This document shows, one piece after another, positions 15,556-23,614 of a stretch of 49,064 bases of DNA. Position numbers and translations under genes: made by a program. This stretch comes from a virus. The stretch is from the IMG/VR virus record IMGVR_UViG_3300005563_000010, positions 1 to 49,064 of that record; one strand, written 5' to 3'. Within the stretch, counting starts at the first letter, position 1. Each line of letters begins with the position of its first letter. The notes below the pieces were generated by a model. The model ran no database searches. It was not told where the DNA came from and was given only the letters and a program-made list of their open reading frames with translations.

Positions 15556-15729
15556 ATGGGAATTGTAATTGGTCCGATTGACCACGCAACTTGGTACTGC
15601 ATGAGGCAGTGCCGGGAAAGTATCGCGTACCTGCGAACCCTTAATAACTCTATCTATGATATCGAGATTAAGGGTGAGCAGGAGATACTTCGTCACTTCA
15701 TGAATGGCATCGAAAGGAAAGTAGCTTGA
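15556..15729 (+). CDS. 57-aa protein
   Basis: ATG 15556 follows AAGGAGA with good spacing; the longer GTG form at 15538 is less likely. Starts MGIVIGPIDHATWYCMRQCR. The end overlaps the next gene as TTGA. Confidence 0.6.
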   Translation: MGIVIGPIDHATWYCMRQCRESIAYLRTLNNSIYDIEIKGEQEILRHFMNGIERKVA

Positions 15730-17964: not shown

Positions 17965-18118
17965 AGGTGAAGTAGTTATGCGTTATCCGTATGTCGTTGA
18001 CATGGATGACGAAGAGTCAGCAGAGTATGAAATGATTACTCTTGCTAAAGAAGATTTCCCCGAAGCTACAGGTTTTTCTGTAACCGGGTTGCGTAAGACT
18101 AAGGATATTTCTATTTAA
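17951..18118 (+). CDS. 55-aa acidic protein
   Basis: ATG 17951 overlaps the previous gene end; the stop overlaps the SSB start as TAATG. Acidic centre (MDDEESAEYEM). Translational coupling to the SSB is likely. Confidence 0.55.
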   Translation: MPVYEGEVVMRYPYVVDMDDEESAEYEMITLAKEDFPEATGFSVTGLRKTKDISI

Positions 18119-18609
18119 TGGCTAGCACCGAAATGGTGGACGTACAAGGTAAGATCAAGTACATCCACGCAGTATCATTTAATAAATTCGAGAAGTGGGC
18201 AGTTACCTTCTACCCTACCCCTGCCTCCCGTGAGATCATCATGGACCTTCAAACCCAAGGTGTGAAGAACACATGGAAGAAGGACGAAGACAATCAATAC
18301 TATATATCATTCAGTCGTGATCCTACTAAGATGATGCGTGGTAAGGTCGTAGCTTTTACGGCTCCTAAGGTGATTGACAGCACCGGCCAACCCATGGATG
18401 GAACTAAGATAGGACGAGACAGCGACGCTACTATTCGCCTAGAGGTCTACCAACACGGTACACCTTCAGGTGGTAAGGCTAAGGCTGCACGATGGGATAG
18501 TATTCGTATCGATCATCTCGTACCATATGATCCCGATAAATCATTAACCGCAGAAGAAGCTGCTAACATCAAAGAGTTGGCTGCCTCTCCAGAACAGGAC
18601 CCTTGGTGA
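18118..18609 (+). CDS. Single-stranded DNA-binding protein (gp2.5-like)
   Basis: 163 aa. Coats ssDNA at the fork and contacts the replisome. A beta-rich body with conserved-type aromatic residues (FNKFEKWAVTFYP near 23-35) is followed by an acidic tail ending SPEQDPW, the aromatic-terminated acidic tail expected of the gp2.5 type. Position right after the polymerase and an SSB-like size support the call; residue-level conservation cannot be checked here. Confidence 0.75.
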   Translation: MASTEMVDVQGKIKYIHAVSFNKFEKWAVTFYPTPASREIIMDLQTQGVKNTWKKDEDNQYYISFSRDPTKMMRGKVVAFTAPKVIDSTGQPMDGTKIGRDSDATIRLEVYQHGTPSGGKAKAARWDSIRIDHLVPYDPDKSLTAEEAANIKELAASPEQDPW

Positions 18610-18764
18610 TGAAATTCATTCTTGTAATTCTCGGATGTTGTCTTTGGTGGAAACCTGTAGAATTTGAAAGCAAAGAAGAATGTGAAGCAGCCGGAGTTCG
18701 AGTTGAAAAGAACTTAAAGTCAATATTTAAAGATAATCCTGATATTAAATATAGGTGTATATAG
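18609..18764 (+). CDS. 51-aa exported protein, possible lipoprotein
   Basis: ATG 18609 overlaps the SSB stop (TGATG). A signal-like start, MKFILVILGCCLWW, contains ILGC, which approximates a lipobox. The rest has an ECEAAG segment and a late Cys, a pattern seen in small secreted phage proteins. An outer spanin is possible but the gene is far from the lysis cassette. Confidence 0.5.
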   Translation: MKFILVILGCCLWWKPVEFESKEECEAAGVRVEKNLKSIFKDNPDIKYRCI

Positions 18765-19297
18765 TGACTATTACTGAAGCATTAGCTGAAATTAAGACTA
18801 TTCTTAAGCGTATCCAAAGCAAGCGGGAGTTCATTGAAAGCTACCAACTCCGGTTGGATAGCCTGAAGGACCCGCTTGAGAAGGACGGTGGTTCTGCCAA
18901 GGCTGTCCTTGAAGCAGAGCAGGCTGTCTCCGATCTTGAAGCACGTATCGTCGCTCTCCGCGTCGGTATCCAGAAGGCAAACGAAGACACTACGATCTCC
19001 ATTGAGGGTGTCGAGAAGCCTATTGCTGACTGGCTGATCTGGAGACGTGAGATTGCACCCGGCCGTGAACGCTTCCTTAACAGCCTGACAGGTCGTCTGG
19101 CGCAGGCGAGAGCCAGCGTGCAAGGCAAGTCATACACTTGGGGAAACGACAAGTCAGCTACCGAGAAAGCTGCTGATATCGTCGTTAACATCGACGAAGC
19201 CAAGCTGTCGAAGGACAAGGAACAAATGAAGAATATCCTTGGTCAACTCGATGGTCAGCTTAGTCTCAAGAATGCTACTGTTCTTTTGAATATTTAA
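18764..19297 (+). CDS. Coiled-coil protein before the RNA locus
   Basis: 177 aa from GTG 18764, which overlaps the previous stop (TAGTG); a GTG nine bases earlier is also possible. Long helices dominate (residues about 4-75 and 120-175). Unknown function. It is the last gene before the 2.2 kb RNA region. It carries one CTGACAGGT at 19085-19093. Confidence 0.7.
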   Translation: MTITEALAEIKTILKRIQSKREFIESYQLRLDSLKDPLEKDGGSAKAVLEAEQAVSDLEARIVALRVGIQKANEDTTISIEGVEKPIADWLIWRREIAPGRERFLNSLTGRLAQARASVQGKSYTWGNDKSATEKAADIVVNIDEAKLSKDKEQMKNILGQLDGQLSLKNATVLLNI

Positions 19298-19429
19298 ACC
19301 CATACTGTGGACTCCCTGAGCATTGCGACGGGGGATATAAGGGTTAAGTTGGAGACCACTCCACAGTATCAATTACTTTCTATAGCGAAGTGAGAAAACA
19401 ATAAGCAAAGATTAACCTCCTTAAGAGGT

Positions 19430-19446
19430 CTTGACTTTTAATCAAG
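19430..19446 (+). other. Lys-type anticodon-arm-like hairpin
   Basis: CTTGA-CTTTTAA-TCAAG folds as a perfect 5-bp stem with a 7-nt loop that would display UUU with the correct flanking U33 and A37. It overlaps the acceptor-like strand of the tRNA-like fold at 19437-19511, so the two cannot both form. No matching D-arm or acceptor for a normal tRNA-Lys is found around it. Confidence 0.35.
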
Positions 19447-19511
19447 TTGCTTATGGTTAGCAAACCGGCAAAAGACCTACGGGTCTTGTGGTTCGACTCC
19501 ACATATTAAAG
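19437..19511 (+). ncRNA. tRNA-like fold without anticodon arm
   Basis: 75 nt. TTTAAT (19437-19442) pairs with ATTAAA (19505-19510); D-arm-like TTGC/GCAA (19447-19450, 19460-19463) has a 9-nt loop with GG; T-arm TGTGG/CCACA (19487-19491, 19499-19503) carries the canonical-type loop TTCGACT. In place of an anticodon arm is AAGACC-TACG-GGTCTT (19472-19487), a 6-bp stem with a UNCG-type loop. It could be a degenerate tRNA or a tRNA mimic. Confidence 0.4.
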
Positions 19512-19791
19512 CTTAACGCTTAGCATTCAAAGTTCAGATTTTGAACGCTCAACTGTTAACTTTAAAAGCTATTTAAAAATCCATCGGTTATCTGGTGTAT
19601 GTAGAGATATATACAATCTGCTTGCTTATCGGCAGATACTCAGGATGGTGGCTGCTATACGGAAGTCTTTTAATTTGTTACTTGGTAGTAAGGTTATCGC
19701 AAGAGCCTTGGGAAGTCTTAAACGCACAGAGTATTTCCTGTGACTACCACTTTTAGTTTTCGTCAGTACAAATGCAGAAGACCTTTACCTC

Positions 19792-19812
19792 GCAGGATGA
19801 CTAGGTCTCCGC
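19792..19812 (+). other. Conserved loop hairpin, copy A
   Basis: Loop ATGACTAGGTCT (19797-19808) closed by GG/CC, with further GC pairs across a bulged A. One base differs from the main loop consensus. Confidence 0.55.
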
Positions 19813-20191
19813 TCGGATGTGGACCGGGTTGAAGGTATTGTCTGGCCGAAAGGCGTACATCACACGCAAGTAAGCTATCTCCGGATAGCACGAACGCTGT
19901 GTACCGACTTGCAATCGGCTGACGAAGAGCCGAGCCTCCGCGTCCAAAGCGTTGAGGTTCACCCCAACGTACAGGTGTGATCGTATCAGGTGTACGTTGC
20001 ATACTCCGTAGGTCAGGGAGTCCCGTTGTGTTACCCGACGGAGGCTAAAACAGGGAACACCAAGGTGTATATCGATGTACGTCCGGGTCGCCGGTTAACA
20101 GTCAGCAACACCTACAGTTCCTACTTCGGTGGGTGGTCTCCCCTTCGGAAAGTGAGACTACGGTAGTGAGCAAACGCTACGTCCAACACCA

Positions 20192-20209
20192 ACCATGACT
20201 AGCTCTGGT
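20192..20209 (+). other. Conserved loop hairpin, copy B
   Basis: Loop ATGACTAGCTCT (20195-20206) closed by ACC/GGT. Confidence 0.65.
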
Positions 20210-20485
20210 AGACAGCACTGAGAAGTCCTCGTTGAAACTCTTAATCCCATCGGGGAGGTAGAGGGTGATGTATGGACTGGATGAAACGTCAGTGAGACGA
20301 GTTCATCAAACGAAGTACATCGGCAGTGTAGAATTGCCCTTAGGCGTTAACGTAGAGGACAGGAGAGCCCAACTCTACAGGTATAGCCTGTAAGTTAATT
20401 ACATAGGGTATCCATAGAAGATGTTATTCTGCACAGGTGAAAGTTAGACGAAGGGTACGTCTTACCTAGGAGAATAAGGCTTATG

Positions 20486-20503
20486 GCCATGACTAGCTCT
20501 GGT
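20486..20503 (+). other. Conserved loop hairpin, copy C
   Basis: Loop ATGACTAGCTCT (20489-20500) closed by GCC/GGT (one G-U pair). GACTAG here is also complementary to CTAGTC at 20607-20612, which follows a T-loop-like GTTCAAATC (20592-20600), so an alternative long-range pairing is possible. Confidence 0.6.
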
Positions 20504-21154
20504 ACGGTCCCTCCGCTTAAAGGATGTAGAGACGAGTGCCGCCACGCCCGCAAGCTTAGATGGCATGAAACCCATCAGTGGTTGTATGGAGGTTCAAATC
20601 TCCCGTCTAGTCCGTAGCTCAGATAATGGAAAACAACCGACACTACAGAAAGGTGTCAACCGATTACTCTAGCCCTTAGGCTTTGGCCCTACCGCTGGGT
20701 AGAGCAGGAGCACTGTTCGAACGCATCAGGACCTGCGTGACATTCTCCGCAGAAACCGTGGCCCGTGGTTGAACGCATGGCCCATTGGGTTGTCATATAC
20801 CGTTTGACTGGAAGGACAAGGCCCTGTAGCATACCCCGCTGTGTGCAGTGGTGAACTGCAAGTCTTGCGACGACGAACAGCGAAATCAATACAGGAAGAA
20901 CTGATCCGTCTGGGTATCTAATACCTAGTCACGTCGGTTACGCCCGGTAGACTGTTTCTCTATTTGGGTCACATACTGCGTACATTCGCAGAGAACACCC
21001 CGTACATAAGTCTTCCGTTGGTAAGAAGTGGCCAACAAAGCAAACAGGGGATCACCGCTACTCTGTTAAGATTAGGGGGACTGCCCCACGCGAAGGCGTA
21101 GGATGTCTTTCAACCGTCTGTGTGGATGGGCTTCTTACATAGCTCTATGTCCCA

Positions 21155-21175
21155 AACCATGACTAGCTCTGGGTT
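21155..21175 (+). other. Conserved loop hairpin, copy D
   Basis: Loop ATGACTAGCTCT (21159-21170) closed by CC/GG with AA/TT beyond one unpaired G. Confidence 0.6.
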
Positions 21176-21270
21176 AAGCATAAACGCCGGATAACATGGA
21201 AGACTATATCTGCAGAGAGTGTTCGACTGAGTGTTAACCAAACACCCGAACCAAGCACAAATGACTGTCC

Positions 21271-21288
21271 GGTATGACAAGCTCTACC
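21271..21288 (+). other. Conserved loop hairpin, copy E
   Basis: Loop ATGACAAGCTCT (21274-21285) closed by GGT/ACC, the reverse of copy B's ACC/GGT closing pairs. Confidence 0.65.
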
Positions 21289-21484
21289 TCAACTCTAGTA
21301 ACGCCAGATTAGCGTGAACCACGAAATGGAGTTGCTGATAGCACACGAACTACCCCATTCATCCATCGTGGGAGATGAATATGACACACGTGAAGTACTA
21401 CCTCATCGCAGTTCCCTCTCGCTGGAGTTCTTTAATACTCCGTAAGCAACTGGGACAACCTCCTTAACAAAGAGGGGTAACGAT

Positions 21485-21510
21485 GGGGGGCATGACAAGC
21501 TCTGCTCCCC
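21485..21510 (+). other. Conserved loop hairpin, copy F
   Basis: Loop ATGACAAGCTCT (21492-21503) closed by a 7-bp stem GGGGGGC/GCTCCCC (one G-U). It lies 27 bp before the start codon at 21538. Confidence 0.7.
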
Positions 21511-21537
21511 GCCCCAAACCCCCGGACGGAGATTAAC

Positions 21538-21861
21538 ATGGCAAAAGGTTCGTACGGAGAGATTGTCGCTCTCCTTGAATACTTCGACAAAAAGAACGTC
21601 CCTGTGAAACCAGCTAAGCGCTTTGGCAAGGGACAGAAACAGAAGAAATTTGATCTAGTTGAGCTACTTCGGCAGAAGAAAGAAGAGACTGAAATGCTGG
21701 AGAAGTTCCTAGAGGAACAGGCTAAACTGAAGAAGAAGGACGACAAGAAACCAGAGAGTAAAGGACCACAGCTTAAACACATCGAGTGGTTCATCATTGG
21801 TATTCTTAGTTATCCCTTCGTTGGTCATCTTTACCAAGCAATGTTGGTGGTGCCGAAATGA
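21538..21861 (+). CDS. Basic protein with C-terminal membrane segment
   Basis: 107 aa from ATG 21538 after CGGAG. A Lys/Glu-rich helical body (to about residue 78) precedes a hydrophobic C-terminal segment (WFIIGILSYPFVGHLYQAML). A tail-anchored membrane protein of unknown role. It overlaps the next gene (ATGA). Confidence 0.7.
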   Translation: MAKGSYGEIVALLEYFDKKNVPVKPAKRFGKGQKQKKFDLVELLRQKKEETEMLEKFLEEQAKLKKKDDKKPESKGPQLKHIEWFIIGILSYPFVGHLYQAMLVVPK

Positions 21862-22047: not shown

Positions 22048-22773
22048 ATGAAATACTACGCAATAGCTGATCTACACGGTCGGTATGATCTGTTGTTGGA
22101 GGCTATCAACAAAATCTACGATCACGCTGGCAAAGACGACTACAAGATTATTACTCTCGGTGACTACATTGACCGTGGCCCCAAGAGTATGCAGACCATC
22201 GAACATCTCATGGGACGTACAGGGGATTCTGTGTGTCTTCAAGGAAACCATGAGGCTATGATGGTTGAGACAATAACTACGCCTTTGATGCCCGGTTGGT
22301 GGGTGGGTAATGGTGGAGACGCAACTCTACAGTCTTATGGCTGGGGCGGCGCACCTTATTCCATCCATGCATACGATGTCGTGCCTAAAGCTCACATCGA
22401 ATGGATGAAAAACCTTCCTCTATACTTTGAGACAGAGAAACAAGTATTCGTCCACGCAGGCATCCCACAGGACAATATGAACCTTCCCCCAAATTCTAAA
22501 TTCTCTCACAAAGAGAAACACTTGCGGGAACAAATGATTTGGATGTTGTATGACAAACGTACCGCAGGTGGCTGGAAAGGCAAACACGTCGTCCACGGAC
22601 ACCACCAATTCGAAGATGGTCCTCACGTCTGGCATGGGCCTAAGGGCGGGAGAACTGACCTTGACTGTTATGCGTGGCGGACCGGGCGTCTCGTTGTGGG
22701 CGTCTTCGATGACACCCAAGGACATGCAATCGACTACATAGAAATCAAGGACGGAACTTTCGGCGTTGCCTAA
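22048..22773 (+). CDS. Calcineurin-like metallophosphoesterase (Ser/Thr phosphatase type)
   Basis: 241 aa, close in size to the lambda protein phosphatase (221 aa). All metal-binding motifs are present: DLHG (8-11), GDYIDRG (38-44), GNHE (66-69), HAG (136-138) and VHGHH (182-186). The family removes phosphate from proteins or cyclic/diadenosine nucleotides using a dinuclear metal centre; GDxxDRG and GNHE in this spacing are the PPP signature. The substrate in infection is unknown. Its end overlaps the exonuclease start. Confidence 0.93.
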   Translation: MKYYAIADLHGRYDLLLEAINKIYDHAGKDDYKIITLGDYIDRGPKSMQTIEHLMGRTGDSVCLQGNHEAMMVETITTPLMPGWWVGNGGDATLQSYGWGGAPYSIHAYDVVPKAHIEWMKNLPLYFETEKQVFVHAGIPQDNMNLPPNSKFSHKEKHLREQMIWMLYDKRTAGGWKGKHVVHGHHQFEDGPHVWHGPKGGRTDLDCYAWRTGRLVVGVFDDTQGHAIDYIEIKDGTFGVA

Positions 22774-23614
22774 CATAAATACCCTCATACCTGACATCTA
22801 CTCACTCGTTGGAGGCGAAGATGGTATCACCGATTTTCTCGCATCCAATATGGGTGCTGACATTGCAAGCGCTGTCCAGACTTCCCTCAGAAAGCAACCA
22901 CGGCGTGGTCTACGTCTGTCCGCCCTCGGACCGAAGTGTCCATGCCAGTTGTGGTATTCAGTCAATCGACCAGAGCTTGCCGAACCCCTTCCTCCACATG
23001 CAAAGATTAAGTTCACCTTCGGGCACATAATCGAGCATATGATAATCGGTCTTGCTAAAGCTGCGGGACATGAAGTCACAGGAGAGCAAGATGAACTCAC
23101 TCTTGACGGCGTGGTTGGGCACAGGGATTGTGTCATTGACGGTTGTATCGTTGATGTCAAATCTGCTGCTTCCCGTAGCTTTCTCAAGTTTCGTGACAAG
23201 ACGATCTCTCAGGATGATCCTTTTGGGTATTTGGATCAGCTCGACGGGTACACTGTGGCCTCTCTGGATGACCCATTGGTACGCATTAAAGACCGCGCTT
23301 ACCTTCTCGCAGTAGATAAACAACTAGGACATCTCGCATTATATGAACACAAAATTAGATCGAACTCAATTAGAAGTAGAATTGAATTGTACAAAGAGTA
23401 TGTTGGAAGACCTAGCCCACCTGATTGCAATTGCGGAACGGTTGCGGATGGGAAGTCCGGCAATCAGAAGCTCGACGTGCGAGCATCTTATTCAGCTTAC
23501 AAACATTGCTGCTTCCCAAATCTTAGAACTTTCCTCTATGCAAATGGACCTGCCTACCTTACAAGAGTAGTTAGAGTTCCTGACGTACCAGAGTTGACAA
23601 AGACATTACATTAG
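22766..23614 (+). CDS. PD-(D/E)XK exonuclease (RecB/Cas4-like)
   Basis: 282 aa with TTG start overlapping the phosphatase. Nuclease signature: GHIIEH (86-91), RDCVIDG (D121), VDVKSA (D130, K132) and a QxxxY motif (Q158, Y162). Cysteines CPC (58-60) and a C-terminal set (DCNC, HCC) are placed as in Cas4-type Fe-S nucleases, so an iron-sulfur cluster is possible. Likely roles are host DNA degradation and recombination, as with T7 gp6. Confidence 0.85.
   Translation: MPNINTLIPDIYSLVGGEDGITDFLASNMGADIASAVQTSLRKQPRRGLRLSALGPKCPCQLWYSVNRPELAEPLPPHAKIKFTFGHIIEHMIIGLAKAAGHEVTGEQDELTLDGVVGHRDCVIDGCIVDVKSAASRSFLKFRDKTISQDDPFGYLDQLDGYTVASLDDPLVRIKDRAYLLAVDKQLGHLALYEHKIRSNSIRSRIELYKEYVGRPSPPDCNCGTVADGKSGNQKLDVRASYSAYKHCCFPNLRTFLYANGPAYLTRVVRVPDVPELTKTLH

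Follow-up and report, generated by a model that had tools for sequence, protein, structure and literature searches.

A giant structured RNA in a clade of soil phages, with tRNA-like modules and a putative membrane protein encoded directly downstream

The window analysed here, the whole 49,064-base record IMGVR_UViG_3300005563_000010, comes from a podovirus-like phage with terminase, portal, head and tail genes and a T7-like replication module. Between an SSB-like gene (18118-18609) and a Cas4-type exonuclease gene (22766-23614) lies the stretch 19298-21537, in which the original prediction had seen no plausible gene. This was borne out, as the ORF listing contained no open reading frame of more than 79 aa wholly within the stretch, and the longest frame in 19742-21537 (79 aa) was below the mean of 105 aa in shuffled sequences. 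No tRNA was found in the window with ARAGORN or RF00005, and there is no recognisable promoter or terminator framing the giant RNA described below. The interval, for which several units had been considered possible, consists of two, a small RNA (module A, 19298 to ~19741) and a giant RNA (~19742-21537); the first is absent from the related contigs L031 and L096, where the giant RNA is present. The analysis supports the identification of 19298-21537 as a large structured noncoding RNA locus on the plus strand (Table 1). The giant RNA is probably co-transcribed with the phage replication genes; there are no transcript data.

Table 1 Features of the RNA locus and its homologues. Positions are those of the window (W) unless a related contig is named
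Feature	Position	Strand	Basis or remark
180-aa gene, remote DIP1984 relative	18755..19297	+	upstream of module A
Module A, separate small RNA	19298..19741 (3′ end approximate)	+	conserved core in W, L092, L084, L101, L102
tRNA-like insert of module A: T-arm TGTGG-TTCGACT-CCACA and UACG-capped hairpin	19453..19512	+	sequence; minimum-energy fold
Giant structured RNA	19742..21537	+	ends approximate; 3′ end abuts start codon at 21538
5′ domain, closing helix 19756-19765/19920-19928 (10 bp)	19756..19928	+	consensus fold
Hairpin with GUCCAAA loop, 11 bp	19931..19961	+	10 double substitutions
Hairpin CAACGTACA/TGTACGTTG, seen in the original prediction	19965..19999	+	5 double substitutions
Domain closed by 20064-20068/20186-20190 and 20072-20082/20174-20185	20064..20190	+	consensus fold
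Recurrent hairpin, stem-UGACNNGCUC-stem, copy 1	20192..20209	+	
Recurrent UGACNNGCUC hairpin, copy 2	20485..20504	+	
Recurrent UGACNNGCUC hairpin, further copy	21270..21288	+	
Recurrent UGACNNGCUC hairpin, 3′ end, 9 bp stem	21485..21510	+	
T-hairpin domain, closed by TAGACG/CGTCTA (20445-20450/20604-20609)	20445..20609	+	6 double substitutions, 0 unpaired cells
T-arm-like hairpin GGAG-GTTCAAAT-CTCC	20588..20603	+	loop exceeds canonical by one base
D-loop-like stretch TAGCTCAGATAATGGAA, 3′ of T-hairpin	20613..20630	+	CTCAGATAATGGAA invariant in W, L092, L096, L031
Long hairpin, 13 bp	20901..20936	+	6 double substitutions, 0 unpaired cells
107-aa Lys-rich protein, C-terminal transmembrane segment (hydropathy)	21538..21861	+	directly 3′ of giant RNA
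Giant RNA homologues	L031 11010-12658; L092 13790-15662; L096 13026-14720		MAFFT/nhmmer

Relatives were collected by scanning IMG/VR with the window DNA polymerase, and the best 80 polymerase loci of several hundred related contigs were kept. About 60 of these best 80 contigs share the gene order pol, ssb, RNA, small gene and Cas4 exonuclease, with 1.5-4 kb between the SSB and exonuclease genes; the carriers of the giant RNA are viruses of bacteria, represented by soil phage contigs. The window RNA (19742-21537) was linked to L031, L032, L092 and L096 using blastn, MAFFT and nhmmer and matched L100 at E 8.8e-30 (nhmmer), and these contigs chain the window group to the other groups. The window DNA had no blastn match in annotated phages. 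The 15-mer CATGACTAGCTCTGG had 29 matches in viral contigs, none with broader homology, and the 15-mer CCAAGGTGTATATCG gave no homologue beyond the contigs already known. Searches that started from the SSB and from the small protein found nothing, probably due to these proteins diverging too fast for the pattern step of the search. The sole genome contigs with a related polymerase were only 27-30% identical, and therefore no host was assigned. The Roseobacter phages CRP-5 and CRP-13, the nearest described phages by polymerase, have no such noncoding interval, and no description of the giant RNA was found in a literature search.

RNAalifold analysis of the four-sequence window group gave a consensus of 374 pairs in which 170 cells were changed on both sides (double substitutions), compared with 85.6 ± 7.2 (maximum 99) in shuffled and refolded alignments and no more than 24 when the partners were slid. 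Three other groups, aligned separately, gave 181, 62 and 142 double substitutions against control values of 78 ± 11, 39 ± 5 and 82 ± 8, respectively. Since the shuffle controls preserve column composition but not phylogeny, these figures are indications and not probabilities. Well supported helices include 19931-19941/19949-19961, 20072-20082/20174-20185, 20445-20450/20604-20609, 20536-20545/20578-20587, 20639-20644/20652-20657, 20715-20720/20726-20732 and 20901-20917/20921-20936, and 7 double substitutions without a single unpaired cell were counted in the 10-bp helix of the domain at 20064..20190. Alignment of the window RNA is poor over its 3′ third, and helices there need caution. The long-range pairings 20211-20217/20422-20429 and 20430-20439/21447-21457 are predictions of the consensus fold that are invariant in the four sequences, and are neither supported nor contradicted. 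Many of the perfect stems of the original prediction are real and conserved with compensatory changes, and the comparison of covariation and coding in homologues that it had proposed came out in favour of an RNA. Its alternative stems fared unevenly: AACGTACA/TGTACGTT (19966-19973/19991-19998) has compensatory changes, whereas CCCCAACG/CGTTGAGG is unconserved in the relatives (alignment by eye). In the 3′-terminal UGAC..GCUC hairpin, L092 (~15570-15625) and also L096 have a whole additional hairpin within the loop, which suggests that the conserved bases belong to an internal-loop motif and not to a simple loop.

The assignment to the plus strand follows from the strand bias of the hairpin loops. 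UNCG loops closed by stems of 5 bp or more were found three times on the plus strand of the window (19478, 19880, 20125) and not on the minus strand, with 0.18 expected, consistent with the earlier observation of correct tetraloops on the plus strand only. The GNRA part of that observation did not hold for the window, where these loops were at chance (one on the plus strand, none on the minus strand, ~0.6 expected), although across the 62 intervals of the family GNRA loops are strongly plus-biased (GAAA 34:6 and GAGA 27:7, plus:minus). Other hairpin loops in the 62 intervals were confined to the plus strand (TTCGAGT 25:0, CTCATTA 15:0, CAGATTA 11:0, CAGATAA 9:0), as was the loop GTCCAAA across the family (9:0), and T-loops of the form GTTCRANTC occurred 76 times on the plus strand and once on the minus strand. 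The UGACNNGCUC loop is carried on differing stems at four places in the window, five in L031 and also in L100 (13 plus, 1 minus).

Canonical T-arms (at least 4 pairs) were present in 51 of the 62 intervals, which contain no tRNA gene except for one doubtful ARAGORN call in L081. Many of these T-arms are followed by a short capped hairpin, equivalent to an acceptor stem, and then by a D-arm with a conserved GG, the order of a circularly permuted tRNA. A loose descriptor, which tolerated long acceptor loops, was hardly better than its own shuffles and was rejected in favour of a short-loop descriptor and a covariance model. The short-loop descriptor detected 19 sites in permuted order, compared with 5.9 ± 2.1 when the flanks were shuffled. 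The covariance model, built from six sites, gave non-training matches down to E 2.4e-13, and 105 of its 107 matches were on the plus strand, mostly in the RNA interval, with the remainder mostly at or near tRNA-Leu genes (e.g. L069, L100). In an alignment of 22 modules, 97.3% of cells were paired and 10 of 13 pairs varied on both sides (70 cells), which was equalled in none of 500 shuffles; because this alignment was fitted to the model, the percentage paired is inflated, whereas the variety of pair types is unaffected. The tRNA-like module has 14 G-U pairs. The minimum-energy folds of L102, L069 and L091 are a permuted cloverleaf; the single-sequence fold energies of the modules are not unusual, and the case for them therefore rests on covariation. 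In the window itself, nhmmer placed the hairpin GGAG-GTTCAAAT-CTCC opposite the canonical T-arm at 14112-14128 of L100, within the match reported above. The window copy is degenerate and matched the permuted-module model only at chance level (E 0.16), and the full form is therefore not essential in every member. The connection with tRNAs that had been anticipated was upheld in so far as tRNA-like modules are built into the RNA; neighbouring tRNA genes are another matter, as ARAGORN found none in the window. Genes for tRNA-Leu (TAA) lie elsewhere in several of the phages (L057, L069, L075, L079, L081, L084, L086, L100, L106). Their T- and D-arms resemble the permuted modules, of which tRNA-Leu (TAA) is a possible evolutionary source.

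Module A was found only in loci with the gene at 18755-19297 (the window, L092, L084, L101 and L102); its core is conserved and its tRNA-like insert variable. In the window insert the UACG-capped hairpin occupies the position of the anticodon arm and the T-arm was matched at E 0.03. At the same place, L101 has a full permuted tRNA that matches the YrlA model (RF02553) at E 2.7e-5; its score of 39.6 bits, against a gathering threshold of 69, was the best obtained, and the model was above gathering nowhere and had no match in the window. Relatives of the 180-aa protein in L101 and L102 match NF038048 (3.5e-6 and 4.5e-5), under the curated cut-off. The DIP1984-like gene and the ~0.4 kb structured RNA (18755-19741) form a cassette upstream of the giant RNA in some of the phages only, and together may constitute a Y-RNA-like ribonucleoprotein of their own.

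Right after the giant RNA, 55 of 57 loci encode a Lys-rich protein of ~98 aa that has a single hydrophobic segment close to its C terminus and contains a loose P-[FIL]-[VI]-G-x-x-Y motif. The transmembrane call is a hydropathy score, which is moderate for the window copy (1.44). No consistent PHROGs or Pfam match was obtained for 38 members of this protein, nor an NCBIfam match for three. Two N-terminal types were observed among the proteins of L052, L056, L063, L101 and others, one with MxKGYGExxALLEY and the other with a Pro/Tyr/Gly-rich low-complexity sequence. In a sister clade with the same pol-ssb-exonuclease order, T-arms were present in 0 of 48 loci and the companion protein in 1 of 48, a doubtful case.

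Rfam scans of the window and 13 relatives at gathering thresholds returned only ordinary tRNA genes, none of them in the window, and a permissive scan of the locus (E ≤ 5) gave just two matches, both obviously spurious. Since no Rfam family matches the window, identity with GOLLD, ROOL, OLE, HEARO, tmRNA or a group I or II intron was rejected; all of these except OLE, together with tRNA, had been named in the checks suggested beforehand, and none gave a window match. The original prediction had left a choice between a divergent GOLLD or ROOL and a new class, and of these two the new class is supported and the divergent member is not; there is no covariance-model match to either RNA. The bacterial Y RNA YrlA is a circularly permuted tRNA mimic composed of a T-arm, a capped acceptor stem and a D-arm (PMC11472068), a topology met in the relatives and only in degenerate form in the window. 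YrlA differs in being ~114 nt long and bound by Ro60, whereas the phage modules are embedded in a giant RNA, with up to several in one molecule; among the window proteins searched, a subset of the ORFs, none was identified as Ro60/TROVE. Two-piece or permuted tmRNA similarly combines a tRNA-like T-arm with an acceptor as part of a larger RNA, and has a permuted gene order, but the phage RNA lacks a tag frame and a free CCA acceptor, and the tmRNA model gave a partial, sub-threshold match in L101 only (29.3 versus 84 bits). For OLE RNA, the commonest immediate downstream gene encodes OapA, a charged membrane protein that binds OLE RNA and relocates it to the membrane (PMC12265935). The phage locus has the same arrangement, in which a large ornate RNA is immediately followed by the gene for a positively charged membrane protein, in the 55 of 57 loci given above versus 1 of 48 in the RNA-less sister clade. 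OLE differs in being ~600 nt, cellular and from Gram-positive bacteria (Bacillota), while the phage RNA has no Rfam match; OapA has four predicted transmembrane helices and the phage protein one, and no sequence relation between them was found. Giant phage RNAs, permuted tRNA mimicry and an RNA with an adjacent membrane protein are thus each precedented, but their combination is not in the literature searched.

At a probability of roughly 0.5, the giant RNA is best explained as a new family that serves as the scaffold of a membrane-anchored ribonucleoprotein, in the manner of OLE and OapA. Computation established the RNA identity, the plus strand, the conservation and the adjacency of the protein; expression, binding, localisation and a host partner are inferred. 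In this model the giant RNA (~1.8 kb here) would scaffold the particle, the Lys-rich arm of the downstream protein would bind the RNA, as judged from charge and position only, and the C-terminal segment would tether the particle to the membrane of the host, by analogy with OapA and OLE RNA. The tRNA-elbow modules, without an anticodon loop and without a free CCA end, may act as folding joints, or may capture a host factor able to recognise the tRNA elbow (RNase P, an enzyme that modifies T-loops, or the ribosome), as the Y RNA mimic does. A fuller and only tentative version is that a new class of giant phage RNA forms the core of a membrane-anchored viral ribonucleoprotein in which one to several permuted, anticodon-less tRNA mimics capture host tRNA-processing or translation factors while the cell is infected. 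Against the scaffold model, the co-occurrence of RNA and protein could reflect a single ancestral gain and not function: Fisher tests of this co-occurrence were extreme but take no account of relatedness, and a single such gain would be enough.

GOLLD forms a 14-mer RNA cage, and the main rival is an assembly of RNA alone, in which homo-oligomers (a cage or ring) would form by loop-loop contacts, as in GOLLD and ROOL, and the membrane protein would be unrelated. Its size and ornateness place the phage RNA in the same class as these giant structured phage and prophage RNAs, which are cage-forming and of unknown function (PMC12286853), and the identical UGACNNGCUC loops on different stems, with AGCU palindromes in some copies, would suit quaternary contacts. 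This explanation is nevertheless unlikely, as the phage RNA has no sequence or covariance relation to GOLLD or ROOL, and the membrane protein is near-constant where the RNA is present and all but missing where it is not. The phage RNA also differs from GOLLD and ROOL in being two to three times longer, in lacking adjacent tRNA genes and in being co-encoded with a membrane protein. The RNA might instead be a structured leader, a 5′ UTR of great length through which translation of both the small protein and the exonuclease is controlled, given that it runs directly up to the ribosome-binding site and the start codon of 21538-21861 with no intervening terminator. Such a leader is improbable, because 1.8 kb of dispersed domains with tRNA-like modules far exceeds any known leader and conservation is not highest in the part closest to the start codon. 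The position between the polymerase and SSB genes and the exonuclease gene would also suit an element acting as DNA, a replication origin or packaging structure, for which little room is left by the strand-biased T-loops and UNCG- and GNRA-type loops and the G-U pairs of the tRNA-like module, all of which indicate RNA, and by the sister clade, which replicates without the interval RNA. A decayed island of phage tRNA genes, suggested by the resemblance of the T- and D-arms to the tRNA-Leu (TAA) genes, is the most disfavoured explanation and scarcely tenable, since the perfect stems with compensatory changes, the permuted order with short capped acceptor stems (19 sites versus 5.9 ± 2.1) and the covariation over the whole RNA show that the fold is under selection.

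Very few RNAs of this giant structured kind are known, and most have no settled role. The phage RNA would be a further class of giant RNA, among the largest and so far confined to one phage clade, and the permuted tRNA mimicry of the bacterial Y RNA would recur within large viral RNAs. Its function is directly testable by pull-down and localisation, given the candidate partner protein encoded beside it and the tRNA-elbow modules that can be recognised in it.
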